Part shown: positions 3,485 to 22,938 of the stretch, piece by piece
How positions within the stretch are numbered: position 1 is the first letter of the stretch
Layout: each line of letters begins with the position of its first letter
Source of the DNA: Minisyncoccota bacterium
Lineage (GTDB): Bacteria > Patescibacteriota > Minisyncoccia > JAHIHE01 > JAGLIN01
NCBI GenBank assembly: GCA_028691985.1
Contig: JAQUYG010000007.1
Location: forward strand, 1 to 37,307
Direction of reading: 5' to 3'
Length of the DNA stretch: 37,307 bases
The notes under the pieces: model-generated
Told to the model about the DNA's origin: nothing
The model's database searches: none
The model's input: the letters and a program-made list of their open reading frames with translations, nothing else
Made by a program: the position numbers and the translations under genes

Positions 3485-5299
3485 TCAATTTTTTTTGAGA
3501 ACGGAGAGGAAGGCTTCTTGCGGGATATCTACTTTTCCGATGGATTTCATTTTTTTCTTGCCTTTTTTTTGCTTGTCTAGAAGTTTGTTCTTGCGCGATA
3601 CATCTCCGCCGTAGAGTTTGGCAGTTACATCTTTCCGGAAAGGTTTGATAGTTTCGCGGGCGACGATTTTTCCCGAGATGGCGGCCTGCAAAGCGATGGC
3701 GAAGTTTTGGCGTGGAATGGCCTCTTTGAGTTTCTCAACAATTTTCTTCCCCTCAGTATGCGCTTCTTCGCGAGGAACGATACGGCTGAAAGCCTCCACT
3801 TTTTCATCTGCAATCAGTATATCAAGTTTTATGAGATTACCAAGGCGAAAGCCGATCGGCTCATAGCTCATTGAGGCATAACCGCTGGAAATGCTCTTGA
3901 GATTGTCGTAAAAATCAACGATGATATTTAAAAGTGGTGCTTCATAAGTGAGAATAACACGGTCCTTGGAAAGGTAACTGGTGCTCTTATAGGTGGCGCG
4001 GGAATTTTCAGCAAGTGCCATAACTCTACCGATTTTGTCTTCCGGCAGAACTATTTCCAGTTTGGCCCAAGGTTCTCTGATTTCTGCTAGATGGTTCGGG
4101 TCAGGCATCCCAGCTGGTGAGAAAATCATTTCTTCTTCGCCTGTTTTCTTGACGACCTGATAAGATACACTCGGCGTGGTCACAACTAGATTCATGTCGT
4201 ACTCGCGAGTAAGCCTCTCGCTTACAATTTCTAAATGAAGCATTCCCAAAAATCCACAACGGAATCCTCTTCCAAGTGCAGTGGAACTCTCCGGTTCGAA
4301 AGAAAGAGAAGCGTCGCTAAGCTTGAGTTTATCTAGTGCATCGCGGAGAGCTGGGTAGTCCGCTCCGTCAATCGGGTAGACGCTCGCAAAAACAACCGGA
4401 CGCACTTCTTTATAGCCAGGAAGTTGGGAAACTTTGCCTGCATTTTCTTCGGCAAAAGCTTCGTGCAGGTTGGTGATTGTGTCTCCTACTCGGCATTTGC
4501 CAACCTCTTTAAGTCCGGTGGCGATGTAGCCGATTTCTCCAGTTTGGAGCGAATCTCTTTTCTTGAGTTCGGGAGTGATGATGCCCAGTTCTAATATTTC
4601 CGATGCCGCTTTACTTCCCAAAAAGGCTATTTCTTCTCCAACCTTGATTTCGCCGTCCACGATTCTGACTTGCGCGACTACGCCTTTGTAGCTGTCGAAG
4701 TAGGAGTCAAAAATGAGCGCCCTCGCAGGAGCATTAATATCTCCCGTCGGGCAGGGAACTTCGCTTATCACTCTTGCTAGGATTTTTTCTACATTTTCTC
4801 CCGTCTTAGCAGAGATTTTTAGGATATCTTCGCGTTCGCAGCCAATCAGGTCCATAATTTCCTGTTCAACTTCTGGTACCATCGCGCTGGGCATATCGAT
4901 TTTATTGATGGTGGGAATGATGATTAGATCCTGCTCCATTGCTAAATAGAGGTTTGCAATCGTCTGCGCCTGGATGCCTTGTGTCGCATCGACGAGCAAA
5001 ATGGCGCCTTCGACGGCGGCGAGGGATCTAGAAACTTCATAAGTGAAATCCACATGACCGGGGGTGTCTATGAGGTTGAGTATATATTTTTTCCCCTTAT
5101 CTTTGTATTCCATTTTGACTGGTTGGAGTTTGATGGTGATGCCACGTTCGCGTTCCAGGTCCATCTGATCGAGAAGTTGGGCTTTCATCTTGCGGTCTTC
5201 GACAGTATGAGTGATTTCAATAAGCCGATCCGCCAGAGTTGATTTTCCGTGGTCAATGTGGGCGATAATACAAAAATTTCTAATATTTTCTAAATTCAT
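3485..5299 (-). CDS. lepA: Elongation factor 4 (LepA), ribosomal back-translocase GTPase
   Basis: The protein is full length at 604 residues. The GTPase domain shows Ala-His-Ile-Asp-His-Gly-Lys-Ser (13-20), the switch I region Glu-Arg-Gly-Ile-Thr, Asp-Thr-Pro-Gly-His (78-82) and Asn-Lys-Ile-Asp (132-135). Domain II and the EF-G-like domains follow. The LepA-specific C-terminal domain ends with the lysine-rich Lys-Lys-Gly-Lys-Lys-Lys-Met-Lys segment. It acts on translating ribosomes in the cytoplasm and affects initiation and elongation under stress. The ATG start gives the canonical N-terminus, but no Shine-Dalgarno sequence precedes it. The upstream leader contains a conspicuous structured segment, annotated separately. 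Confidence 0.98.
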   Translation of the reverse strand: MNLENIRNFCIIAHIDHGKSTLADRLIEITHTVEDRKMKAQLLDQMDLERERGITIKLQPVKMEYKDKGKKYILNLIDTPGHVDFTYEVSRSLAAVEGAILLVDATQGIQAQTIANLYLAMEQDLIIIPTINKIDMPSAMVPEVEQEIMDLIGCEREDILKISAKTGENVEKILARVISEVPCPTGDINAPARALIFDSYFDSYKGVVAQVRIVDGEIKVGEEIAFLGSKAASEILELGIITPELKKRDSLQTGEIGYIATGLKEVGKCRVGDTITNLHEAFAEENAGKVSQLPGYKEVRPVVFASVYPIDGADYPALRDALDKLKLSDASLSFEPESSTALGRGFRCGFLGMLHLEIVSERLTREYDMNLVVTTPSVSYQVVKKTGEEEMIFSPAGMPDPNHLAEIREPWAKLEIVLPEDKIGRVMALAENSRATYKSTSYLSKDRVILTYEAPLLNIIVDFYDNLKSISSGYASMSYEPIGFRLGNLIKLDILIADEKVEAFSRIVPREEAHTEGKKIVEKLKEAIPRQNFAIALQAAISGKIVARETIKPFRKDVTAKLYGGDVSRKNKLLDKQKKGKKKMKSIGKVDIPQEAFLSVLKKN

Positions 5300-5362
5300 T
5301 TCGTTATGGGAATATCTGATTAGATTGGAAAATTTCTAATATTAAGGATCCCTAGAAAAGGG

Positions 5363-5441
5363 AGGTTTGATTTTTAGTATTTCTTCGCTTAGAAACTTTA
5401 TCTTGAAATCAAACCCTAAAGAACGGTTCCAGAGAACCGCT
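5363..5441 (-). promoter_or_regulatory. Structured leader upstream of lepA (candidate RNA element)
   Basis: About 65 to 140 bases upstream of lepA there are two potential hairpins. A long one pairs AGGTTTGATTT (5363-5373) with AAATCAAACCC (5406-5416) and has a nested TTTCT..AGAAA stem inside. A short one pairs CGGTTC with GAACCG (5424-5440). No T-run follows, so it is not a simple terminator. It could be a regulatory leader RNA; no known riboswitch class is recognised. Confidence 0.3.
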
Positions 5442-5542
5442 TCTGTGAAAAAACTGCTTAAAATAAAGCGATATATCTATAATCTATTATAGTTTGGGCT
5501 TTTTGGCAAATAAATGAAATGGATTATATTAGGTTAAAATAT

Positions 5543-5571
5543 TTGACAAATTTTATGAATGTGTTGTATTG
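5543..5571 (+). promoter_or_regulatory. Possible sigma-70-type promoter
   Basis: A perfect TTGACA at 5543-5548 is followed after 17 bases by GTATTG (5566-5571), a weak -10. It lies 30 bases before a ribosome-binding site and a very short open frame. Confidence 0.35.
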
Positions 5572-5601
5572 AAAACAAGATTGGCCATAAAGAGGTAAAA
5601 A

Positions 5602-5658
5602 ATGGATAGTGTTTGTTATGTTTCTCCAGTGGGCAGAAGAAAAAGCTTTGATGCTTGA
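5602..5658 (+). CDS. Possible 18-residue peptide in a mini-cassette
   Basis: An ATG at 5602 opens an 18-codon frame (Met-Asp-Ser-Val-Cys-Tyr-Val-Ser-Pro-Val-Gly-Arg-Arg...). An AGAGG lies six bases upstream, a TTGACA-type promoter lies further upstream, and the strong hairpin terminator at 5707-5733 follows. Promoter, ribosome-binding site, frame and terminator therefore occur in the right order and spacing, as in the longer orphan genes. The frame is too short to support by composition and may be chance. The terminator is shared with the convergent murJ gene. Confidence 0.25.
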   Translation: MDSVCYVSPVGRRKSFDA

Positions 5659-5706
5659 TAATGTTTATTTTTGAGATTCATGCATAAAAAGTGTTGCGAC
5701 AGCAAT

Positions 5707-5733
5707 AAAAAACGGAACGAGACTCCGTTTTTT
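5707..5733 (-). terminator. Bidirectional terminator downstream of murJ
   Basis: AAAAAACGGA (5707-5716) pairs with TCCGTTTTTT (5724-5733) around a seven-base loop, giving a T-run on both strands. It lies 11 bases beyond the murJ stop. Confidence 0.8.
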
Positions 5734-5743
5734 GAAATCAATT

Positions 5744-7351
5744 TTATTCCTCCACGATAATTTCTGTGGTTTTGATCTTGGTTTTGAATATCTTTCGTCG
5801 GAAGGAATTTTTGAATTGGTTGAATTCTTCGATTTGAAATATCCATCCCCAGGCGAAATAGACGAATAGCATCGCAGTCCCAGATAGTGCGCCTTGGATG
5901 CCAATGCCGAAAAAAGTGCGGGTGTTTAGATATGGTTCGACGGCATAGAGAGTTTTATAACCGATGAGTCCTGCGATGATTGCAGAAAAGGAAATCTGTA
6001 CGATAGCGATGTAGAAGTTTCTCGGTACGGCGCTGAGATATTTTTTGTTGAGAAGTATAAAAAGAATAGTGGCGTTGAGGATGCTGGAAAGGGTGAAGGC
6101 TCCGACTAGACCGTTGAGCTCAAATTTGGGCGACAGCCAAAGAGCCAGAATTATATTCATGATGGCGCTGAAGAAGGCCGCATAAAAAGGTGTTTTGGAA
6201 TCGTGAAGAGCCCAGAATGCTCGGGAAAAAAGTGGTACGAGTGATTGTGCAAAAAGGCTGATGCAAAAAATGTATAGCGCGTCGATGGTTGCTACTGTCG
6301 ATGTCCAGTCGAAATAGCCGTGGCCGTAGATGACACGCACGGCCTGTGCACGGAAAACGATCAGGAAAATGCTGAGTGGGATTATGAAGTATAAAATTTG
6401 TTTGGTAGTCGAAAGCAGGACTTCGGTGAATCTTTCTCGATGATGCTTGTCACTGAATTCTGAGAGGGTGGGGAAACAGGCGACTGCAAAAGAGATGGCG
6501 AAAATTCCGAGCGGAAAACTTTGCAGATCGTTCGCGTAGGTGAATGCGGTTATGCTGCCTGCTGCGAGAGTGGAAGCTATGATGGTGACCACGAAGGGAT
6601 TGATTTGGGAAATAATCATTGTGAAAATGCGGGGAATCATAATTTTAATGATTGTCCGCACTTCTTCGCTTTTGGTGTTTACAAACATCTTGTATTTGAA
6701 GCCGAGCATTTTGACGCTGGGAAATTGGATTATGAATTGGAGGAATGCGCCAATCGGCACCCCCCAAGCGAGGCCTGCAAGTCCATAGTTTTTTGCTAAA
6801 ACGATTGCTCCAAAAATAATACCGAGATTGTAGACGATAGGAGAGAGGGAATAGACTAGAAATCTCTTATAAGATTGCAGGATCCCTCCAGTAATGCTGG
6901 AAAGAAGCATAAAAATCGGGCTCAGGAACATGATTCGGGTGAGCTCGACAGTTTTTTGTTTTTTTTCTGCATCAAAACCAGGAACGATGAGGTCGATAAT
7001 CCATGGGGCAAGGATCATGGATATGATAGTAACTCCCGACAGGACTATGAAGAGAATATTGAGAATGTTGTTGGCTGCTTTGAAAGCTTCTTCTTTTTTA
7101 TCCTCTGCGATGAGTTTTGCGAAGACGGGTATGAATCCGGCAGAGAGGGCTCCGAGGACTATGATATTGAAAATAAAGTCGGGAATGCGGAAAGCGGCAA
7201 GATAGATATCTATATCATTTGTGGGGAAGTTGTTGGCAAGGATGCTGTTTTTCAATACTCCTAAAAACTTGGCGGCAAGCGTCATAACGCCAATAATAAA
7301 AGCCGCAGAAGTGATAGATGCGGATTCTCGGTTGATGAATTTTTTAATCAT
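5744..7351 (-). CDS. murJ: MurJ (MviN) lipid II flippase
   Basis: At 535 residues, the protein has about fourteen hydrophobic membrane segments and the typical MurJ beginning: an N-terminal Ala-Ala-Lys-Phe-Leu-Gly segment, then Phe-Arg-Ile-Pro-Asp-Phe (53-58) and Gly-Ala-Leu-Ser-Ala-Gly-Phe-Ile-Pro-Val-Phe (66-76). MurJ belongs to the MOP exporter superfamily and flips lipid II across the cytoplasmic membrane for peptidoglycan synthesis. The cell therefore probably makes a peptidoglycan wall. The start is ATG at 7351, without a clear Shine-Dalgarno sequence. Its promoter is shared back-to-back with the plus-strand orphan gene at 7472. A strong terminator follows. Confidence 0.95.
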   Translation of the reverse strand: MIKKFINRESASITSAAFIIGVMTLAAKFLGVLKNSILANNFPTNDIDIYLAAFRIPDFIFNIIVLGALSAGFIPVFAKLIAEDKKEEAFKAANNILNILFIVLSGVTIISMILAPWIIDLIVPGFDAEKKQKTVELTRIMFLSPIFMLLSSITGGILQSYKRFLVYSLSPIVYNLGIIFGAIVLAKNYGLAGLAWGVPIGAFLQFIIQFPSVKMLGFKYKMFVNTKSEEVRTIIKIMIPRIFTMIISQINPFVVTIIASTLAAGSITAFTYANDLQSFPLGIFAISFAVACFPTLSEFSDKHHRERFTEVLLSTTKQILYFIIPLSIFLIVFRAQAVRVIYGHGYFDWTSTVATIDALYIFCISLFAQSLVPLFSRAFWALHDSKTPFYAAFFSAIMNIILALWLSPKFELNGLVGAFTLSSILNATILFILLNKKYLSAVPRNFYIAIVQISFSAIIAGLIGYKTLYAVEPYLNTRTFFGIGIQGALSGTAMLFVYFAWGWIFQIEEFNQFKNSFRRKIFKTKIKTTEIIVEE

Positions 7352-7384
7352 TAGCGGAGGAATTATTCCTGATTTAACATTTTT

Positions 7385-7413
7385 ATTCTATATCATATTG
7401 ACGGGTTTGACAA
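7385..7413 (-). promoter_or_regulatory. murJ promoter, overlapping a divergent promoter
   Basis: On the minus strand TTGTCA (7413-7408) and TAGAAT (7390-7385) are separated by 17 bases, about 34 bases upstream of the murJ start. The -35 hexamer physically overlaps the -35 of the plus-strand promoter at 7407-7412. Confidence 0.55.
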
Positions 7414-7435
7414 AAAGGAAAGGAGCTGGTAGCTT
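7407..7435 (+). promoter_or_regulatory. Promoter of the orphan gene at 7472
   Basis: A perfect TTGACA at 7407-7412 is followed after 17 bases by TAGCTT (7430-7435) and then by AT-rich DNA. It precedes the gene by 36 bases and shares its -35 with the divergent murJ promoter. Confidence 0.5.
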
Positions 7436-7471
7436 AATATAAAATATAAATTAAAGGGAGAGATTTTTTAA

Positions 7472-7843
7472 ATGTATGTAAGAGTGATTTACAAAAAAAA
7501 ATTAACAGAGGAGTTAGAAGAGGTGCTTGCAAGTGCTTGTTGTCCTCAAAAGCTGATAATAATCAAAAGAGGTGCATTAGAAGTCGTTTCTCCCTATAAT
7601 TGGATTATTTTGGATGAGAACGAGGGCATTGAAGCAATAGAAATTTATTACGGAAAGGGTTCCATAAAGTGGAAAGTAAATTTTAATATGGTATTAGCGG
7701 ATTTCCATAGTATTCTATTTGGCGCAGAATGGATCCCGGAAATCGTTATGCCTTCAGGAGAAAATTTTTGTTTATTGCCCGAGGGGTGGAATAAACGATC
7801 AAAAAAACAGAATCAACCAATGCTTTGTGGTATTGGAGGATAA
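7472..7843 (+). CDS. Orphan protein of unknown function (123 aa)
   Basis: A soluble, mixed alpha/beta-looking protein with an N-terminal Met-Tyr-Val-Arg-Val strand, a Cys-Cys-Pro at 23-25, a Trp-rich middle and a polar Lys/Gln-rich tail. I do not recognise it. The ATG at 7472 is preceded by GGGAGAG (7455-7461), and a TTGACA promoter lies 36 bases upstream. A short hairpin terminator follows within 12 bases, so it is a stand-alone transcription unit. The strong initiation signals contrast with the divergent murJ. An alternative overlapping frame from 7719 to 7937 runs through the terminator and next promoter and is rejected. Confidence 0.6.
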   Translation: MYVRVIYKKKLTEELEEVLASACCPQKLIIIKRGALEVVSPYNWIILDENEGIEAIEIYYGKGSIKWKVNFNMVLADFHSILFGAEWIPEIVMPSGENFCLLPEGWNKRSKKQNQPMLCGIGG

Positions 7844-7853
7844 ATCCAAAAAT

Positions 7854-7881
7854 GCGGACTTTAAGTTCGCTAATTTTTTTT
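7854..7881 (+). terminator. Terminator of the orphan gene
   Basis: GCGGAC (7854-7859) pairs with GTTCGC (7865-7870) around a five-base loop, with one G-T pair. A run of eight or nine T follows at 7873-7881. Confidence 0.65.
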
Positions 7882-7892
7882 GTACGAAAGGT

Positions 7893-7921
7893 TTGACGAT
7901 GGTGATAAAATCTGTTAAATT
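7893..7921 (+). promoter_or_regulatory. Promoter of the PHP phosphoesterase genes
   Basis: TTGACG (7893-7898), a 17-base spacer and TAAATT (7916-7921). It lies 38 bases before the AGGAGG of the next gene and directly after the previous terminator. Confidence 0.5.
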
Positions 7922-7971
7922 AGGGCAGATTCTTTAAAAGTTTTTTAAAAATAAAAAAAGGAGGAAAGCGC

Positions 7972-9079
7972 TTGGAAGTATGGAACAGGACCATATGTTT
8001 ATTTCTGTCCTATCTCCAAAAGATAAAAGAGGAATTATATAGGCCCGCAAGTAAGAACCCCCCCTCGCTTACCGGGGATATTCAGGATATTTGTTGATAT
8101 CAAAAAATTTAGGAACCTCATTAAAAGGCATCCGAAGCTGAAGAAAAACTATCATAATCACACTAATGCCTCGGACGGGAGTATGTGCCTTGAGATTTTG
8201 GCTTCCGTACTATCAATCTTCGGTTTTACAGAGATAGCCATAACTGACCATGATGTACTGGGACTTGATTTGAGAAAATTCCGACATAGGGCGATAAAAC
8301 AATTCTTCCATTATATGGGAATGGAAATTATTCCAGGCATAGAACTTAGTTGCAAGTTTCCCCTAGGAGGTAATCAAGAAAAAGAATTCCATATAGTGGG
8401 GTTGGGCATATATCATGTTAACGATCTGCTAATGGAAGCGATGAAATTCTTGAGAGAGGGTAGAGAGAAAAGAGCTAAAGAGATAGTTAATCGTATTTTA
8501 GAAGCAGGGTACGAAGTAGATTGTAAGCGAATAGGTAAAAATAAAAATATCACCTTGCTGAATATAGCAGAGAATGTTTATAAAAACGATGGCAGCAGAG
8601 GTGGCGTTGAATTCTTGGAAAAATATTTGATTTCAGGTAAAAAATTTTATTACCCCAAGGAACTTCTTGGTGTTAAAAGGGCGATAGAAATAATAAATTC
8701 TCTAGAGGGCATTGCCTCATGGGCGCATCCTTTCACTACCTTAGGGAAAAGGAAATGTGAGATTGAAAGGGTTTTTGAGCAGTTTCTGAATTTTGGAATG
8801 GAAGCTGTCGAGGTCTATACAAGGAAGCAGACTATAGAGGGGGTGGAAATCCTAGAAGGGCTTTGTGAAAGGCATTCTTATAGATTGGAATGTTTTGCGG
8901 GGTCAGATACTCATACCCTGCTTGATATCTTCTTGTATGTAGAGAGGCTATTGGAGCTTTTCCGGGAGATGGAGAAAAAAAATAAAGTTCAGAACGGGAG
9001 CGAACAATTCGTTCCCTATTTTTGTTATTCGGATTTAACATATGAGCTTAAGAGCGTTATAATCTTTGTGGATAATTAA
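7972..9079 (+). CDS. PHP-domain phosphoesterase, copy 1 (needs a frameshift near its start)
   Basis: Conserved PHP metal-binding motifs are all present: His-Asn-His (8153-8161) with Ser-Asp-Gly, Ile-Thr-Asp-His-Asp, Gly-Ile-Glu-Leu-Ser, Ala-His-Pro and Gly-Ser-Asp-Thr-His. This resembles the TrpH/YciV group of nucleotide or oligonucleotide phosphoesterases; the substrate is inferred only. The first in-frame ATG is at 8183, which would cut off the essential His-x-His. The frame is open back to 8027 but has no ATG, GTG or TTG upstream of 8183. A perfect AGGAGG (7959-7964) stands seven bases before TTG 7972, which opens a frame ending at TGA 8097. A +1 shift at a run of seven C (8058-8064) joins the two into a 368-residue protein. 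This is either a mutation, a slippage switch or a sequencing error. Confidence 0.75.
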
Positions 9080-9806
9080 TCATACTGATATGTTCTCTAA
9101 ATCATATGAAAGACTGGTCTCGGTCTTGAAGATAAGGAAAATCATAAAGAGAAATGATATCGTTGCGATAAATGAACACAACCATACGAAGGTATCTGAC
9201 GGCAGATTGGATTCTTGCGAACTATTAATATTGAACAGTTTATGCGGTTTTAGAAAGGTGTTTGTTGCCGATCACAATAACCTTGTTTGGGGTGGCAAAG
9301 AAAATTTTGTGCCAGGATTCTGTCGAAATTGATTGGCACCGAACTTTATCTAGGAATAGAATTCAGTTGTTTTTTCGATTTGAGCGATTTTGGTGGGAGC
9401 GATAAGACAGAATTCCGTCTAGCGGGGCTGGGTGTTGATCCAGAGAATGCAGGGTTAAGGGAAACGATAAAAAAGATACAGTCGGGTCGCTAGGATATAA
9501 CGAGAAGGATTTTGGAAAACATAAGCCGCGTCGGTTTCTTTATCGTTCATTTTGATGAGTTGAAAGAAAAATCAGGCGGGAATATTACGCTGCCGGAGAT
9601 AGCTAAGAATGTCAGCTGAAAGGATGGGAATCGGGGGTATAGAGGCTTTCAGAGATAATTATAGCGCTCATGATGTCAGGAAGATAGAAAATTTCTGTAT
9701 AGATAGCGACCTGGAAATAAGAGCCGGTTCGGATATGCATGAGACGAGGGATCTTTTTTCTTATATGATAAGAATAGTAAAGGTTTTAGAGGGCGATGAT
9801 TTGTAA
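9066..9806 (+). pseudogene. Decayed second copy of the PHP phosphoesterase
   Basis: Three fragments in different frames align in order with copy 1. The first (TTG 9066, or ATG 9090) carries His-Asn-His...Ser-Asp-Gly and Val-Ala-Asp-His-Asn, ending at TGA 9332. The second, after a one-base-deletion-type shift near 9290-9330, carries Gly-Ile-Glu-Phe-Ser-Cys but has an in-frame TAG at 9491-9493. The third, 9609-9806, carries Gly-Ser-Asp-Met-His. Roughly 75-80 codons between the second and third parts, including the Ala-His-Pro motif, are missing. The fragment starts inside the last codons of copy 1, consistent with an old tandem duplication. A functional product is very unlikely. Confidence 0.8.
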
Positions 9807-9817
9807 TTTTCTGGAAT

Positions 9818-9850
9818 AAAAAACAGCAGATATGATGTCTGCTGTTTTTT
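9818..9850 (+). terminator. Bidirectional terminator between convergent units
   Basis: A perfect 13-bp stem (AAAAAACAGCAGA with TCTGCTGTTTTTT) around a seven-base loop. It serves the PHP genes on the plus strand and the operon ending at 9870 on the minus strand. Confidence 0.85.
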
Positions 9851-9869
9851 ATTATTTCGTTTCTGATGG

Positions 9870-10778
9870 TTAACCCGCAATGCTTTCTTCGATGAAACTT
9901 TGGAATTCTGAAAGAGGGATTATCAGATCTTCGGCTTCGACAACGCCTACAAGTTTTCCTTCCAGATCGATGACGGCTGCGCCAGCGAAAGATTCTTCCA
10001 AATCTTGCACTATCTTTATCCTCGATTGGAAGCTGGAATCGGTGGAATCCTCGGCGATGTGATCCTCGATAAACTGTGAGATGACATCGGTTGCAATAGC
10101 ATCATCTATTATGATAAGCTTCTGTCCGAGCCTCAGGTCTTCAGTGTTGGCATAGGGAATCACGGAAAGATTATCAGCTTCAATCTTGAGGATTATCAGG
10201 CCGTAATCTGTGTTGCGACTTGCTATCTTTGTATTATGGATTTCTCCATTTCGAAGTTCTACCTTTATTGTCGGAGCATTGGTGCCGGTAAGAGCATAAA
10301 TATCTCGGTAGGGGGCGATGATATATCCGTCGCTGGTCAGAACTATTCCGGCCCCGATCTTTTCGAATTCGCCCTCGGTGTTTTTGGCAAGAACTCCGGT
10401 TACTGCTGGCAGAACTCTCTCGATGGCTTCAGAAATAGCCTCTTCTTGTGATATATTAATCTCTTCAATTTCTCTTACTATAGTGGTCCTTTCGTTTACT
10501 CTCTTTAGCAGTTCATATTGATTGAGCTCCGGATATTTGATGAGCGCATTCGGGATAAGTATCCTGTCTATCCATACTCCGCCGAGTCCTCCGATTAGGA
10601 ACACAAACGCAAAAAAAATGGCGAAATTGATCAGTTTTTTCACATAGTTCTTTTTCTTGGCCATGACTGGTCCTGTGGAGGGCGCATTTTTGAAATCCTT
10701 CTTTTCCAGAAAATCTTCGGTCTTTTTTATTTTTTCCATCTGTTTGTCGCGGAGTGATTTGATTTTTATTTCTTCCAT
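9870..10778 (-). CDS. Membrane-anchored HtrA-like pseudoprotease
   Basis: This 302-residue protein has a charged cytoplasmic N-terminus, one membrane helix (about 49-68) and an extracytoplasmic trypsin-like fold. The segment Gly-Ala-Gly-Ile-Val-Leu-Thr-Ser-Asp-Gly-Tyr-Ile (142-153) matches the HtrA strand preceding the catalytic His. The expected Asn-His-Val is Tyr-Arg-Asp instead (157-159). The strand around Tyr-Gly-Leu-Ile-Ile-Leu (192-197) lacks the usual catalytic Asp. The Gly-Asn-Ser-Gly-Gly oxyanion loop is replaced by Ser-Phe-Ala-Gly-Ala (263-267) before Leu-Glu-Gly-Lys-Leu-Val-Gly-Val. All three triad residues therefore appear lost. A scaffold, sensor or substrate-binding role is inferred. 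No PDZ domain is present. It starts six bases after its upstream neighbour, so the two form an operon. Confidence 0.7.
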   Translation of the reverse strand: MEEIKIKSLRDKQMEKIKKTEDFLEKKDFKNAPSTGPVMAKKKNYVKKLINFAIFFAFVFLIGGLGGVWIDRILIPNALIKYPELNQYELLKRVNERTTIVREIEEINISQEEAISEAIERVLPAVTGVLAKNTEGEFEKIGAGIVLTSDGYIIAPYRDIYALTGTNAPTIKVELRNGEIHNTKIASRNTDYGLIILKIEADNLSVIPYANTEDLRLGQKLIIIDDAIATDVISQFIEDHIAEDSTDSSFQSRIKIVQDLEESFAGAAVIDLEGKLVGVVEAEDLIIPLSEFQSFIEESIAG

Positions 10779-10784
10779 ATTATT

Positions 10785-11618
10785 TTAATTTATATAAAGG
10801 TTACTGCTTAAAAGCATAAAGATGATCGCAATCGTCATGAGGGACGCATACTTCATAAATTTTTTTCGCGTGAGTTCGTTGCGGAGATAGCTTTTGATGA
10901 TATTCCAATATGAATAGTATATTGCGAGTATGATGGCGCCGAAAGTGAGATGGTTGATTGGCAGGAAAGTCATTGCCCAGGTGAGTTCAACCATTAAGAT
11001 ACTCATCAGTAGGGAATAAAAATTGAAGGTACGGTTTTTGTAGTAGTCCAGATGCAGTCCGAGCTCTTGGCTTTTTATGAAATTTATCCTGATGAGATAG
11101 TAGCTGGCCGTATAGGTGCTGACGAGTATAATCATCATCATTTTCCACGCATAGATATTGAGGATAGTATAGATGCCGTAAATTCCGCTGGATATAAAGA
11201 AGATGGAAAACATCATTATCGCCTGGTTCAGATTGAACCCTGAATCAAGTAGCCTGACTTTTTCCGCATCTTCTTGCTCTTCGCGTGGAATAAAAAATCT
11301 ATAAAGTCCGATCAGAGTTATTACGAAAAGGAAAGAGGAGAAAAGTATAAAATATTTCTGCACGGTGCTCTGTCCCATGGTGAGAAGGAGCATCACGCTG
11401 CCGACTGAAAGTAGTGTGCTTGGGATGATCGGCAAAAACCGATATTTGGTTATCCAAAAAGCGCTAAAGGTTGAAACTACGAACAGTAGGATCACTGCAT
11501 CTTGAGAAAAGCCGAAACTTTGGAAAAAAGTATTCAGCATAACGAAGAAGACTGCTCCCGGCACCAGAAACTTCAGCATTTTTGATAACTTGTATCTTTT
11601 GAATATTTTAGGTATCAT
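10785..11618 (-). CDS. Polytopic membrane protein, unknown function
   Basis: At 277 residues, with about eight hydrophobic segments spread over the whole length, separated by short charged loops. The most notable loop is an acidic Arg-Glu-Glu-Gln-Glu-Asp-Ala-Glu segment at about 111-118. No transporter or enzyme signature is recognised. It lies 53 bases after the isopentenyl phosphate kinase gene and six bases before the pseudoprotease gene on the same strand. It has its own extended -10 promoter. Tight coupling to the pseudoprotease suggests the two act together at the membrane, but that is inference only. Confidence 0.6.
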   Translation of the reverse strand: MIPKIFKRYKLSKMLKFLVPGAVFFVMLNTFFQSFGFSQDAVILLFVVSTFSAFWITKYRFLPIIPSTLLSVGSVMLLLTMGQSTVQKYFILFSSFLFVITLIGLYRFFIPREEQEDAEKVRLLDSGFNLNQAIMMFSIFFISSGIYGIYTILNIYAWKMMMIILVSTYTASYYLIRINFIKSQELGLHLDYYKNRTFNFYSLLMSILMVELTWAMTFLPINHLTFGAIILAIYYSYWNIIKSYLRNELTRKKFMKYASLMTIAIIFMLLSSNLYIN

Positions 11619-19776: not shown

Positions 19777-19813
19777 AAATAAAAAAACGGAATCAATTTT
19801 CTGGAGGGAAATC

Positions 19814-19969
19814 GTGAATGAATTTGTAATTTTGTGTGAAGAAGGAATAGTTTCTATAGGCGGTTCATTTAAGACGCCAGGACCAGTTGGAGGAAACTTT
19901 AATATAGGAGGGGTTCCTGATCTTTCTCCAAAATCTGTCGTTGGGGCATCTGTTATAGAATATCTGTGA
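19814..19969 (+). CDS. Small orphan protein, 51 aa, glycine-rich
   Basis: A GTG start at 19814 follows GGAGGG (19803-19808) with five bases of spacing. The frame runs 51 codons to TGA. The product has a hydrophobic Phe-Val-Ile-Leu-Cys start, then Gly-rich segments (Ile-Gly-Gly-Ser, Val-Gly-Gly-Asn-Phe-Asn-Ile-Gly-Gly-Val) and Ser-Val-Val-Gly-Ala-Ser near the end. I do not recognise it. A promoter upstream and a bulged hairpin with eight T downstream make it a self-contained unit of the same build as its neighbours. The Gly-rich start is somewhat leader-peptide-like, but this is not evidence of export. Confidence 0.5.
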   Translation: MNEFVILCEEGIVSIGGSFKTPGPVGGNFNIGGVPDLSPKSVVGASVIEYL

Positions 19970-19982
19970 TATCCTTTCTTAA

Positions 19983-20030
19983 AAAACGGAGTTCATAATT
20001 TTTTGGACTCGTTATTTTTTTTGTCTTTGA
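19983..20030 (+). terminator. Terminator of the 51-residue orphan gene
   Basis: AACGGAGTTC pairs with GGACTCGTT with a bulge, and a run of eight T follows at about 20020-20027. Confidence 0.6.
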
Positions 20031-20273
20031 AATATGAATCGTAGATATCCGTATATTATTATGGTTTGTGAAAAATAAGCAGTCTTTGTAAGATTAGTTC
20101 TGTAATCGTCGCAAGTTTAGTGGTTGATTTTTATAGACTGTCGGACTAGAGTGTAATTATCAATCAATGGAGGGGCTAAAATAAAAAAAGCTTTAATGCT
20201 TATCAGATAAGGTTTAGAGACGAAAGTCTTTAATCAAATATTTTTTAAGGTCCGAAATAACGGGCTTTTATCT
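20031..20273. other. Intergenic region with an orphan ribosome-binding site
   Basis: No gene is supported. It includes GGAGGGG at 20169-20175 preceded by ATTATCAATCAA. The following codons offer only ATA (20180) or a four-codon ATG frame. A closely similar segment (ATTATCAATTAA then GGGAG) occurs at 22070-22086. A leader peptide or a decayed gene start is possible. Confidence 0.3.
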
Positions 20274-20302
20274 TTGACTTTTAATAACCTTTGTGATACT
20301 AT
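20274..20302 (+). promoter_or_regulatory. Promoter of the 215-residue orphan gene
   Basis: TTGACT (20274-20279), a 17-base spacer and TACTAT (20297-20302). Confidence 0.5.
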
Positions 20303-20411
20303 CATCCGTTATTCCTGATTTCTATAATAATCTAAAAAAACAGAATTTTATAGAAAATATGACGGATGACAAGGAAAATTATGATTATTAGATAAATCGG
20401 AGGTAAGAATT

Positions 20412-21059
20412 TTGTCAGAAAAAGATCCTTTAGGAGAATGGGGCGCAACAGTTCTGGGTGATATAAATTGGGGTTTTGAGAATTTACCAAAGGATTCCAA
20501 AAGTTTGGTTTTGTCTGGTAAATTTGTGCGTGTCTGCCTGACAGTCTTAAATCTTTATGTAACTGGATGGTCAGGGTCCTTGATTTGTGTAGATTCTGGA
20601 CAATCTCCTGAAGAAAAAATATCGGTTGAGCATATAGCAAAGATTGCTCGTATAAGAACGGTCTTTATTCAGACTATTTTGAAAAAGATAGAAGATCCGA
20701 ATTTTTTTTATAGACCGGGCTTCTATCTCGAAAGGAATTATCGGAAAGTTTTTCCGGTTCCCGAATGGATGGTCGGAACTATATTCGAAGAAGTAGGGAC
20801 AATTTTTCAGGAGTTCATACTTCCAAATGGTATAGAAGATCGTAGTAAAGAGTATTTCGAAAATCCAAAATGGAACTTCCAAATGGAAGTTGTGGACTAT
20901 CTCAAAAAAGCTTATGCTGAAGAGATAGAAAGGCAGGAACAAGAAAACGGTTCAAGTGAGCCCATTTTGGAGTTAAGGCTGGGCCTAATAGAAAGCCTTT
21001 TTCAATGTCTTAAGGAAGAGGAGGAATTGGAACAAGGAACAAGAATGAAGAAAAAATAA
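20412..21059 (+). CDS. Orphan protein, 215 aa, mostly helical
   Basis: The TTG start at 20412 has GGAGGT (20400-20405) six bases upstream. The N-terminal part is Trp/Gly-rich (Glu-Trp-Gly-Ala...Ile-Asn-Trp-Gly-Phe), followed by a hydrophobic stretch around 38-50. A long amphipathic C-terminal region is dominated by Glu, Lys and Leu, with a probable coiled coil from about 155 to 215. No family is recognised and no catalytic motif is visible. It has its own promoter, and a strong hairpin terminator follows 31 bases after the stop. Its two downstream neighbours are Nudix-like candidates with the same transcription-unit design. Any functional link among them is inference. Confidence 0.6.
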   Translation: MSEKDPLGEWGATVLGDINWGFENLPKDSKSLVLSGKFVRVCLTVLNLYVTGWSGSLICVDSGQSPEEKISVEHIAKIARIRTVFIQTILKKIEDPNFFYRPGFYLERNYRKVFPVPEWMVGTIFEEVGTIFQEFILPNGIEDRSKEYFENPKWNFQMEVVDYLKKAYAEEIERQEQENGSSEPILELRLGLIESLFQCLKEEEELEQGTRMKKK

Positions 21060-21090
21060 AATTGTTTAAATTAATATTAAGCAATTTGCT

Positions 21091-21147
21091 CCGCGGAAGA
21101 CTGAAAGCGCAAAAGTTATAAGTCTATAATCCGCGGTTTTATTTTTT
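21091..21147 (+). terminator. Terminator of the 215-residue orphan gene
   Basis: CCGCGGA-AGACT (21091-21102) pairs with AGTCT and TCCGCGG (21121-21136), then TTTTATTTTTT. The T-run merges into the -35 of the next promoter. Confidence 0.75.
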
Positions 21148-21174
21148 GACTTTTTATCATTTTCACGTTATTAA
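21146..21174 (+). promoter_or_regulatory. Promoter of the Nudix-like gene at 21230
   Basis: TTGACT (21146-21151), a 17-base spacer and TATTAA (21169-21174), immediately after the previous terminator. Confidence 0.5.
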
Positions 21175-21229
21175 AAAGGTAAGAAAAGCTAATAAAAATA
21201 AAAACAAATAAAAAAGGAGGTTTTAATCT

Positions 21230-21925
21230 TTGGGTAAAGAGTTTAAAATTGATCCTATTCCGGAAGATTTTGATCCAGAGAAAAGAAAGGAATGGAAAAT
21301 TCTTGCTTTGGTTGAAGGAAAAATGATTGAGGCTAATTTTGTACAAGTTGACTGTCCGTATTTTAATCTAGCTATTGGAGTCAGACCCGAAGGTTTTATA
21401 GGACTGGGTATCAGTGAAAAGACTAGTGTCACGGTTACCCTTATTTCTGTCATAGAAGGTCGGATTGTTATAGGACTGGTTTATAAAAACAGGAAAAATC
21501 TAAATATGGAGGAAAAAGAACCATGCTTGATGGGGGGTCTAGTAAAGGAAGGGGAGACATGCTGCGATACTCTTAAAAGAAATGTCTGTGATCTGGCCAC
21601 CAAGAAAGTTAAACCAATCGCAACAGATGAAACCTATACATGGTGTCGTCTATATCAGGTTCTATCGGAAGACAGAGAAGGTGTGCGTTTTCTTAAAATG
21701 AATATACCTTCAGAATGGTTGGAAGAAGGTGAAAAAACTGAAAAAGGTATAAAGAATTTCAGAGTCAAGCAAGGATATGGAATTGGCCCGGATACTGAAT
21801 CTGTCAGATTTTTTTTCTTATCTGATATAGGCGATGGAAAGGTTACTAAGGATGTCCTAGTAATTGCTGCCGCTGGATTGCTTGTAATAAGAATGATTAA
21901 GGAGGGAGAAGAAATAAAAATATGA
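21230..21925 (+). CDS. Possible degenerate Nudix-fold protein, 231 aa (copy 1)
   Basis: The TTG start at 21230 follows AGGAGG (21214-21219) by ten bases. The central part reads Gly-Gly-Leu-Val-Lys-Glu-Gly-Glu-Thr (101-109), as at the beginning of a Nudix box (G-x5-E). The downstream R-E-U-x-E-E-x-G-U is replaced by Arg-Asn-Val-Cys-Asp-Leu-Ala-Thr, so the metal-binding glutamates are missing. Flanking strands (Arg-Ile-Val-Ile-Gly-Leu-Val-Tyr before; Tyr-Thr-Trp-Cys-Arg-Leu-Tyr-Gln-Val-Leu after) fit the fold. A Pro-Glu-Gly-Phe-Ile-Gly-Leu segment is echoed in the next gene. Hydrolase activity is doubtful, and a nucleotide-binding role is possible. The Nudix assignment is tentative. Confidence 0.5.
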   Translation: MGKEFKIDPIPEDFDPEKRKEWKILALVEGKMIEANFVQVDCPYFNLAIGVRPEGFIGLGISEKTSVTVTLISVIEGRIVIGLVYKNRKNLNMEEKEPCLMGGLVKEGETCCDTLKRNVCDLATKKVKPIATDETYTWCRLYQVLSEDREGVRFLKMNIPSEWLEEGEKTEKGIKNFRVKQGYGIGPDTESVRFFFLSDIGDGKVTKDVLVIAAAGLLVIRMIKEGEEIKI

Positions 21926-21935
21926 GATAATTTAA

Positions 21936-21990
21936 AAAAACGACACTATTTTTAGAATCATAGAATTGATTTTTTGAATAGTGTTTTTTA
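21936..21990 (+). terminator. Terminator of the Nudix-like gene
   Basis: ACACTATT (21943-21950) pairs with AATAGTGT (21977-21984), with A-T extension of the stem and a following TTTTTT. Confidence 0.7.
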
Positions 21991-22156
21991 TATATCTAAT
22001 AAGATTTTGTGGTTCATCAGAATTTTTTATAAAGTTGTTGTTTTTGGTAATTGATTGATTAGATTACAATTATCAATTAAGGGAGAACAAAAAGCGAAGA
22101 TAATATCGTTGTCGGAATTCTAGATATTTTTATACTCGAGATTAAGGTTCTTATTG
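21991..22156. other. Intergenic region with a repeated motif
   Basis: No gene is seen. ATTATCAATTAA followed by GGGAG (about 22070-22086) repeats the arrangement at 20155-20175. Only a TTG-Ser-Glu-Phe-stop frame follows. Confidence 0.3.
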
Positions 22157-22185
22157 TTGACAAATAGTAGAGGTGTGTTATTTTA
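22157..22185 (+). promoter_or_regulatory. Promoter of the gene at 22264
   Basis: A perfect TTGACA (22157-22162) with ATTTTA (22180-22185) after 17 bases, or TATTTT after 16. Confidence 0.45.
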
Positions 22186-22263
22186 TAGAGTCCAGATTCA
22201 TGGAATACTCAACTGGTTTGGGTTGAATTATTTCCTAGATATCTGGCGTAAGGAGAGAAAAAG

Positions 22264-22938
22264 ATGTTTTCTAGCGATGGAAATCCAGACAAAAACGCAG
22301 GTAAAATAATATCTGCAGAAACTTTTAAAAGATGTATGGCCAAAAACATGCCCGGTGTTAAAGGTATTGCACTGGAACCGTTATTGGATGACAATGGAAA
22401 TCCGAAGGATCCTAAAAAGATTTGGGTTTTTAACACAGACCTCCTTCGTATTGATAGGGGTGATGGAAAAATATCTGCTGCTGTTGTGGCACCACATCCG
22501 GCTGGATATTTCGGATTGAAGTTGGTTGAATCGCCTGGTATGGTGGAAGACGGCACTGTCCCAATAGTGGATGGTGTTCCAATATCGGGCGGACGAATCT
22601 TCATTGCAATATTTAATGGCGTGATGATCGTTCAAGAAAATATAGGGTGGAACGGTTCATTCCTTGAGTCGGCATATATGGGCTCACTGGAGAGATTAAA
22701 GCAGGAGCATAAAGAATATCTGGAACTTGGGCTGGAGCAGGAGGCAGAACATGTCGGTTTTGTTCAGACCAATGCTCAAAGGATAGAGGGGATGGTAGAA
22801 GTTCTTTTTGTTCGGTTAAAAGGACTACCTCCGCTGAAGGATGGACAACAATATATGTCCATAGAATACTTTGCTTCATTGTCTGACGATGGGAGATGCC
22901 TGGCTTCTCTTTTGAAAGCAACAGGAGTAATATTATAA
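22264..22938 (+). CDS. Possible degenerate Nudix-fold protein, 224 aa (copy 2)
   Basis: The ATG at 22264 is preceded by AAGGAGAG. The segment Pro-His-Pro-Ala-Gly-Tyr-Phe-Gly-Leu, then Gly-Gly-Arg-Ile-Phe-Ile-Ala-Ile-Phe, parallels Arg-Pro-Glu-Gly-Phe-Ile-Gly-Leu and Gly-Arg-Ile-Val-Ile-Gly-Leu in the previous gene. Further on, an Arg-Leu-Lys-Gln-Glu-His-Lys-Glu helix and Glu-Leu-Gly-Leu-Glu resemble the end of a Nudix box. A strand of the Val-Glu-Val-Leu-Phe-Val-Arg-Leu type follows, as in Nudix hydrolases. The canonical box is not intact. The two genes therefore look like diverged relatives. The function is unknown, and it is transcribed alone. Confidence 0.5.
   Translation: MFSSDGNPDKNAGKIISAETFKRCMAKNMPGVKGIALEPLLDDNGNPKDPKKIWVFNTDLLRIDRGDGKISAAVVAPHPAGYFGLKLVESPGMVEDGTVPIVDGVPISGGRIFIAIFNGVMIVQENIGWNGSFLESAYMGSLERLKQEHKEYLELGLEQEAEHVGFVQTNAQRIEGMVEVLFVRLKGLPPLKDGQQYMSIEYFASLSDDGRCLASLLKATGVIL

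Follow-up and report, generated by a model that had tools for sequence, protein, structure and literature searches.

How could a gene be expressed if the start signal ahead of it lies in another reading frame? This question is raised by a PHP phosphoesterase-like gene (PHP copy 1) on the 37,307-nt stretch of DNA analysed here (the window), which is one contig of a 1.1-Mb genome assembled in 50 contigs and 99.88% complete. A sequence-only reading had placed an AGGAGG-TTG start and the H-x-H motif of the gene in different frames, and direct reading of the letters bore this out (Table 1). The AGGAGG is followed, after a 7-nt spacer, by TTG 7972-7974 in frame 1, which is ended by TGA 8095-8097, while the H-N-H motif stands in frame 2, which opens after TAA 8024-8026 and ends with TAA 9077-9079 (350 codons). 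The frame offset is real in the assembly. ATG, GTG and TTG were sought in frame 2 upstream of ATG 8183 and none was found. As had been pointed out, a start at this ATG would deprive the protein of its catalytic-histidine motif, since both H-N-H and S-D-G (8171-8179, frame 2) lie upstream of it. The proposal that the frames are joined by skipping one C of the C7 tract was arithmetically correct; however, the join is not unique, as a net +1 shift anywhere in the 68 nt from 8027 to 8094 has the same effect.

Table 1. Features at the PHP locus (positions in the window).
Feature	Position	Strand	Basis or remark
Terminator-like stem behind upstream ORF 7472-7843	7854-7870	+	consensus scan
Promoter-like TTGACG-N17-TAAATT ahead of PHP copy 1	7893-7921	+	consensus scan, weak
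Shine-Dalgarno-like AGGAGG	7959-7964	+	direct reading; 16S 3' end GGATCACCTCCTT present in genome
Frame-1 ORF, 41 codons from TTG	7972-8097	+	5' segment non-coding in look
PHP copy 1, open frame 2 from stop to stop, RNase AM/RNM-like	8027-9079	+	coding signal from ~8075
C7 tract within the overlap of frames 1 and 2	8058-8064	+	
Conserved N-terminal extension (helix) upstream of H-N-H	8096-8140	+	
H-N-H motif, frame 2	8153-8161	+	
PHP copy 2, tandem pseudogene	9090-9806	+	2 frame changes, TAG, TGA, ~60 codons lost
Terminator-like stem behind PHP copy 2	9815-9853	+	consensus scan

The consensus scans gave 4 terminator-like stems (1.8 in shuffled sequence) and 10 promoter-like sites against 7.7 in shuffles, and support for the promoter ahead of copy 1 is therefore weak. 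Between 7300 and 10000, a search for RNA families returned four matches, all below gathering scores and to unrelated families.

The body of the gene is well preserved. The frame-2 protein scored 28.8 bits against the PHP superfamily (PF02811; Pfam cut-off 26.4) and belongs to it. Its best NCBIfam models were nucleoside bisphosphate phosphatase and RNase RNM; as its scores of about 92 bits (91.9 for NF047791, cut-off 375) are far below the equivalog cut-offs of 375 and 400 bits, the protein falls outside the RNase AM/RNase RNM equivalog and is called RNase AM-like here rather than RNase AM. Its best solved sequence relatives were RNase AM structures, with a match over ~256 residues, and a fold search with its AlphaFold model (mean pLDDT 82) ranked 9etk first (E 3.7e-16, TM-score 0.74 by target length), making RNase AM the closest fold. 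Residues H43, H45, D50, H75, E106, H122, H234, D294 and H296, which we take to be metal ligands, are all in frame. Judged from sequence and model, copy 1 is RNase AM/RNM-like and a putative RNA-degrading enzyme, for which 5'-3' exoribonuclease activity is only predicted (for RNase AM, see PMC9410882).

Coding in frame 2 begins 3' of the C tract, at ~8075-8096, and on this three lines agree, namely codon score, modelled helix and homology. The frame-2 codon score was -0.16 for 8027-8074 and +0.24 for 8075-8152. In the AlphaFold model nothing was confident before residue 16, and a helix spans residues 16-34. When the N-terminal extension was compared with that of a syntenic relative, the observed score was reached by 0 of 5000 codon shuffles; the comparison of copy 1 with copy 2 was weaker (65 of 5000), and between copy 2 and the relative no conservation was seen (3849 of 5000).

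The 29 frame-1 codons upstream of the C run (7972-8058) look non-coding. They had a codon score of -0.14, and a score this low or lower was obtained for 2.0% of 197 in-frame accessory-gene windows as against 38.5% of 762 non-coding windows; some care is needed here, as the neighbouring ORF at 7472, for which no known family was found in Pfam/NCBIfam, also scores low (-0.11) over its first 29 codons. Among the loci compared, nothing convincing matched the 29-codon peptide. DNA-level homology of the two leaders was not significant (score 127.3, shuffles 117.5, sd 8.5). A 19-residue peptide match at locus L056 was rejected, as it is antisense to an ordinary gene.

The closest relative found was a Candidatus Paceibacterota bacterium MAG (JAQVBZ010000015.1, our locus L034, taken as the same record as L004), in which the order murJ, PHP, protease is retained. 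Identity to this syntenic relative was 90% for lepA, 92% for murJ, 61% for DUF5656, 54% for the protease and 33% for PHP. Along 3485-11618 of the window, divergence from this record changes in a sharp step, from 90-92% identity in lepA/murJ to 54-61% in the adjoining protease/DUF5656, possibly as a result of recombination. The relative's PHP frame is closed by a TGA nine bases upstream of a conserved A-D-I, and its earliest in-frame TTG lies five codons ahead of H-N-H. It has the Shine-Dalgarno-like AAAAGAGG, which no ATG or TTG follows at the usual distance, and it lacks a C tract. The start problem is therefore common to both genomes and the C tract is not. Neither a counterpart of the frame-1 ORF nor conservation of the shift site was found in this one close relative. 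Two other relatives differed: one (L005) has a normal GGAGG-TTG start, and in another (L006) the only TTG directly precedes H-G-H. None of the relatives examined begins at the equivalent of ATG 8183. The earlier claim that the PHP phosphoesterase is out of frame with its start signal holds, while its split at the C run becomes only one possible reading, because the frame-1 segment looks non-coding, conservation lies downstream of the run and the relative lacks a C tract.

PHP genes are sparsely distributed in this group. At E 0.001 just 4 of the 14 family genomes had one, and at E 1e-15 they were detected in 23 of 383 class genomes, the genome under study being counted in both. Scanning genome contigs with PHP gave no closer PHP relatives, and a scan via murJ gave only the record of the syntenic relative and one distant murJ; viral contigs gave no match, and searches of order, class and phylum beyond the family returned distant PHP homologues only. 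As a separate observation, all 19 class-wide RNase AM-like homologues (L007-L025) have Gln in place of the first His of H-x-H and 16 of the 19 in place of the second, and the same proteins retain S-D-G and the later motif residues.

Directly behind copy 1 lies a second PHP gene, which is clearly a dead tandem pseudogene. Copy 2 has a clean ATG start, a frame change at ~9290, a TAG and a TGA, a loss of ~60 codons and a second frame change. Copy 1 has only the problem at its 5' end, which it has in common with its nearest relative. MutS_I and MutL models had no match in the 99.88% complete genome, while controls matched 11 of 14 and 14 of 14 genomes. Slippage is plausible since MutS and MutL were not found; according to the part of PMC8406219 available to us, these families are not common to all CPR phyla studied there. 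A SAM-methyltransferase-like gene of the same genome (L082:1073-1684, contig C42) is spread over three successive frames, with breaks at A7 (~L082:1336-1342) and G7 (1501-1507), each needing +1.

The reading we prefer, at just short of an even chance, is that copy 1 is an incipient pseudogene whose start was recently lost or displaced in a decaying locus; an early pseudogene was one of four options in the sequence-only reading and is the one we retain. An intact RNase AM/RNM-like body would recently have been severed from a working start, its tandem partner being already dead. The C7 tract, 3' of the Shine-Dalgarno/TTG, may have gained a single base; alternatively, a native start codon at ~8066-8090 may have been lost. 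The gene would be off, or would yield a low-level product by weak internal initiation, and would be heading for loss, as happened in most relatives. We infer a genuine lesion of recent origin, and expression that is low or has ceased. Decay is supported by the frame offset, by the missing ATG, GTG or TTG before 8183 and by the 350-codon open body with its motifs kept; by the dead copy 2, the restriction of PHP to 4 of 14 family genomes and the low identity of PHP (33%, neighbours 54-92%); and by the start problem of the relative, the failure to find MutS_I and MutL and the broken methyltransferase-like gene. Six AAAAGGAGG sites judged intergenic, with ORFs of only 2-63 codons behind them, also support it. 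Against decay, the body of copy 1 is free of lesions apart from the 5' end, and two recent pseudogenes with the same start problem and intact bodies would be a coincidence; the non-coding look of the frame-1 segment argues against the C7-slip form of the lesion.

A rival reading, which we regard as unlikely, is that there is no lesion at all and frame 2 starts at a non-standard codon (ATA 8039, 8078 or 8087, or CTG 8138), the frame-1 ORF being a leader or meaningless. Codon signal, modelled helix and homology all begin in frame 2, the syntenic relative likewise lacks a usual start, and a second Shine-Dalgarno-like AAAAGAGG is present at 8025-8032, six bases ahead of ATA 8039. CTG 8138 and the TTG of the relative both stand 11 codons ahead of S-D-G, and ATG stands 10-13 codons upstream of S-D-G in 19 of the 19 class homologues used (from listed starts). 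However, none of these candidate codons is shared by the two genomes, core training genes in the window start with ATG except for two given TTG by the ORF listing, and non-AUG starts are rare.

Most core training genes of the genome have no Shine-Dalgarno, whereas several accessory ORFs in the window do. Genome-wide, AAAAGGAGG-N4-12-NTG was matched 20 times and its reversed control 15 times, and Shine-Dalgarno use is therefore at best a minority feature. Elsewhere in the window (19800-22938), the accessory ORFs 20412, 21230 and 22264, for which no Pfam/NCBIfam family was found, all have a Shine-Dalgarno ahead of them, and two of the three start with TTG; the window's core genes differ in this. 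At 20090-20200 and 22050-22110, similar promoter-like leaders (TTGATT ... AATTATCAATYAA-GGGAG/GGAGG) were seen with a Shine-Dalgarno and no ORF of any length behind; they are possibly remains of lost genes.

It is improbable, in our view, that the family continues to produce its PHP proteins, with translation beginning at a non-AUG codon (AUA, AUU or CUG) or passed on from a short leader ORF that has a Shine-Dalgarno. If true, this would explain why two syntenic genes, 33% identical, have no ATG, GTG or TTG ahead of their conserved N-terminal helix, as well as the sole TTG of a third relative directly at H-x-H, and the odd start would be a way of keeping the enzyme rare. The start problem common to the two relatives is the sole point that sustains an unusual reading.

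A sequencing or assembly error, the organism having six C in the tract, is distinctly unlikely. It would fit the homopolymer within the overlap and the intact body of copy 1, and the methyltransferase-like gene, with one base too many at both A7 and G7, is a second broken gene of the assembly; homopolymer overcalling, if systematic, would give the same picture in both genes. This is countered by twelve C/G tracts of at least 7 bases that lie inside well-scoring open frames, by the start problem of the relative without a C tract and by the non-coding look of the frame-1 segment, and the lesions of copy 2 do not come from homopolymer errors alone.

How unusual the C7 tract is was judged from the other homopolymers. 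A run of at least 7 of any base is found in 6.8% of all 68-nt stretches in the window, a share that rises to 12.6% for the non-coding ones, and the C7 tract in the overlap is therefore moderate evidence only. C/G runs of at least 7 are rare: 40 were counted in 1.106 Mb (from 60 overlapping matches), and 12 of these fall within open frames that are at least 128 codons long and have a codon score of at least 0.10. Credible frame breaks were found at two of the 40, in PHP copy 1 and in the methyltransferase-like gene. Other candidate breaks were weak and ambiguous (L062, L071), were crossed by a long frame (L063, L072) or had a near-zero or negative score on at least one side (L059, L069, L081, L085, L086), and most of the remaining tracts stand where no clear coding signal was seen. 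The C/G tracts of the genome show no pattern of poly-C contingency loci. A mobile repeat carrying the C tract was rejected, as its flanks have no visible likeness to those of the 39 other C/G tracts of at least 7. When 206,853 nt of loci, counting the window and overlaps, were searched for overlapping frames that lack a start, 11 weak candidates came up, three with T6/A6 in the overlap; the thresholds of this search miss both the PHP and the methyltransferase breaks, and it was not used as evidence.

A phase-variable poly-C switch, as had been suggested, found no support, most clearly coding C/G tracts keeping their frame. In the wider sense of a slippage-variable tract, or of rescue by transcriptional slippage, on/off protein forms are quite improbable. 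Tracts would be unstable where MutS/MutL models have no match, and PMC3017870, in the part available, describes frameshifts at homopolymers of reduced genomes, there poly-A/poly-T, which transcriptional slippage may correct. The tract of copy 1, however, is only seven long and not conserved, the segment upstream of it looks non-coding, and credible breaks were limited to 2 of 40 C/G tracts. The available part of PMC6851277, on phase variation in the Candidate Phyla Radiation, deals with a hypervariable repeat gene, and the word homopolymer is absent from it. Programmed +1 ribosomal frameshifting on CCC-CCC-T, the remaining suggestion, is highly improbable, for although CCC CCC T is in the right frame, the shift site has no stop codon (TGA 30 nt downstream), the stimulating structure looked for was not found (z +0.50, +0.63 and +1.20 for three segments, none stable) and the site is not conserved in the syntenic relative. 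No paper on programmed frameshifting in Patescibacteria was found in a literature search.

The most probable view of copy 1 is that an ordinary gene is at an early stage of decay, with no genetic switch or recoding signal involved; a phase switch or a programmed +1 shift at C7 lacks support. On this reading the locus would be a minor instance of gene loss in a reduced genome of the Patescibacteria type. MutS and MutL were not found in this genome, and decay there may often set in with homopolymer slippage. The locus carries a warning too, as a frame joined by eye across a C run can appear exact and yet not be the real N-terminus. If the start-less state is conserved, it would be a clue to non-standard translation initiation among uncultured bacteria.

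Among known systems, copy 1 resembles RNase AM/RNase RNM (YciV; PHP family; PDB 9etk, 7ug9, 2yb1) in PHP fold, sequence and motif residues, and differs from it in its N-terminal helical extension and the lack of a usual start codon. An example of programmed +1 frameshifting is prfB. Copy 1 is like it in needing a +1 change of frame; unlike it, copy 1 has no stop in the shift site, no structure was found and the site is not conserved. As for the homopolymer-frameshifted genes of Blochmannia, as described in the accessible part of PMC3017870, their tracts are poly-A/T of nine or more as against C7 in copy 1, whose upstream segment looks non-coding and whose nearest relative has the start problem without a tract. 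What copy 1 has in common with them is a single-base break at or near a homopolymer in a gene that is otherwise open and prone to loss.
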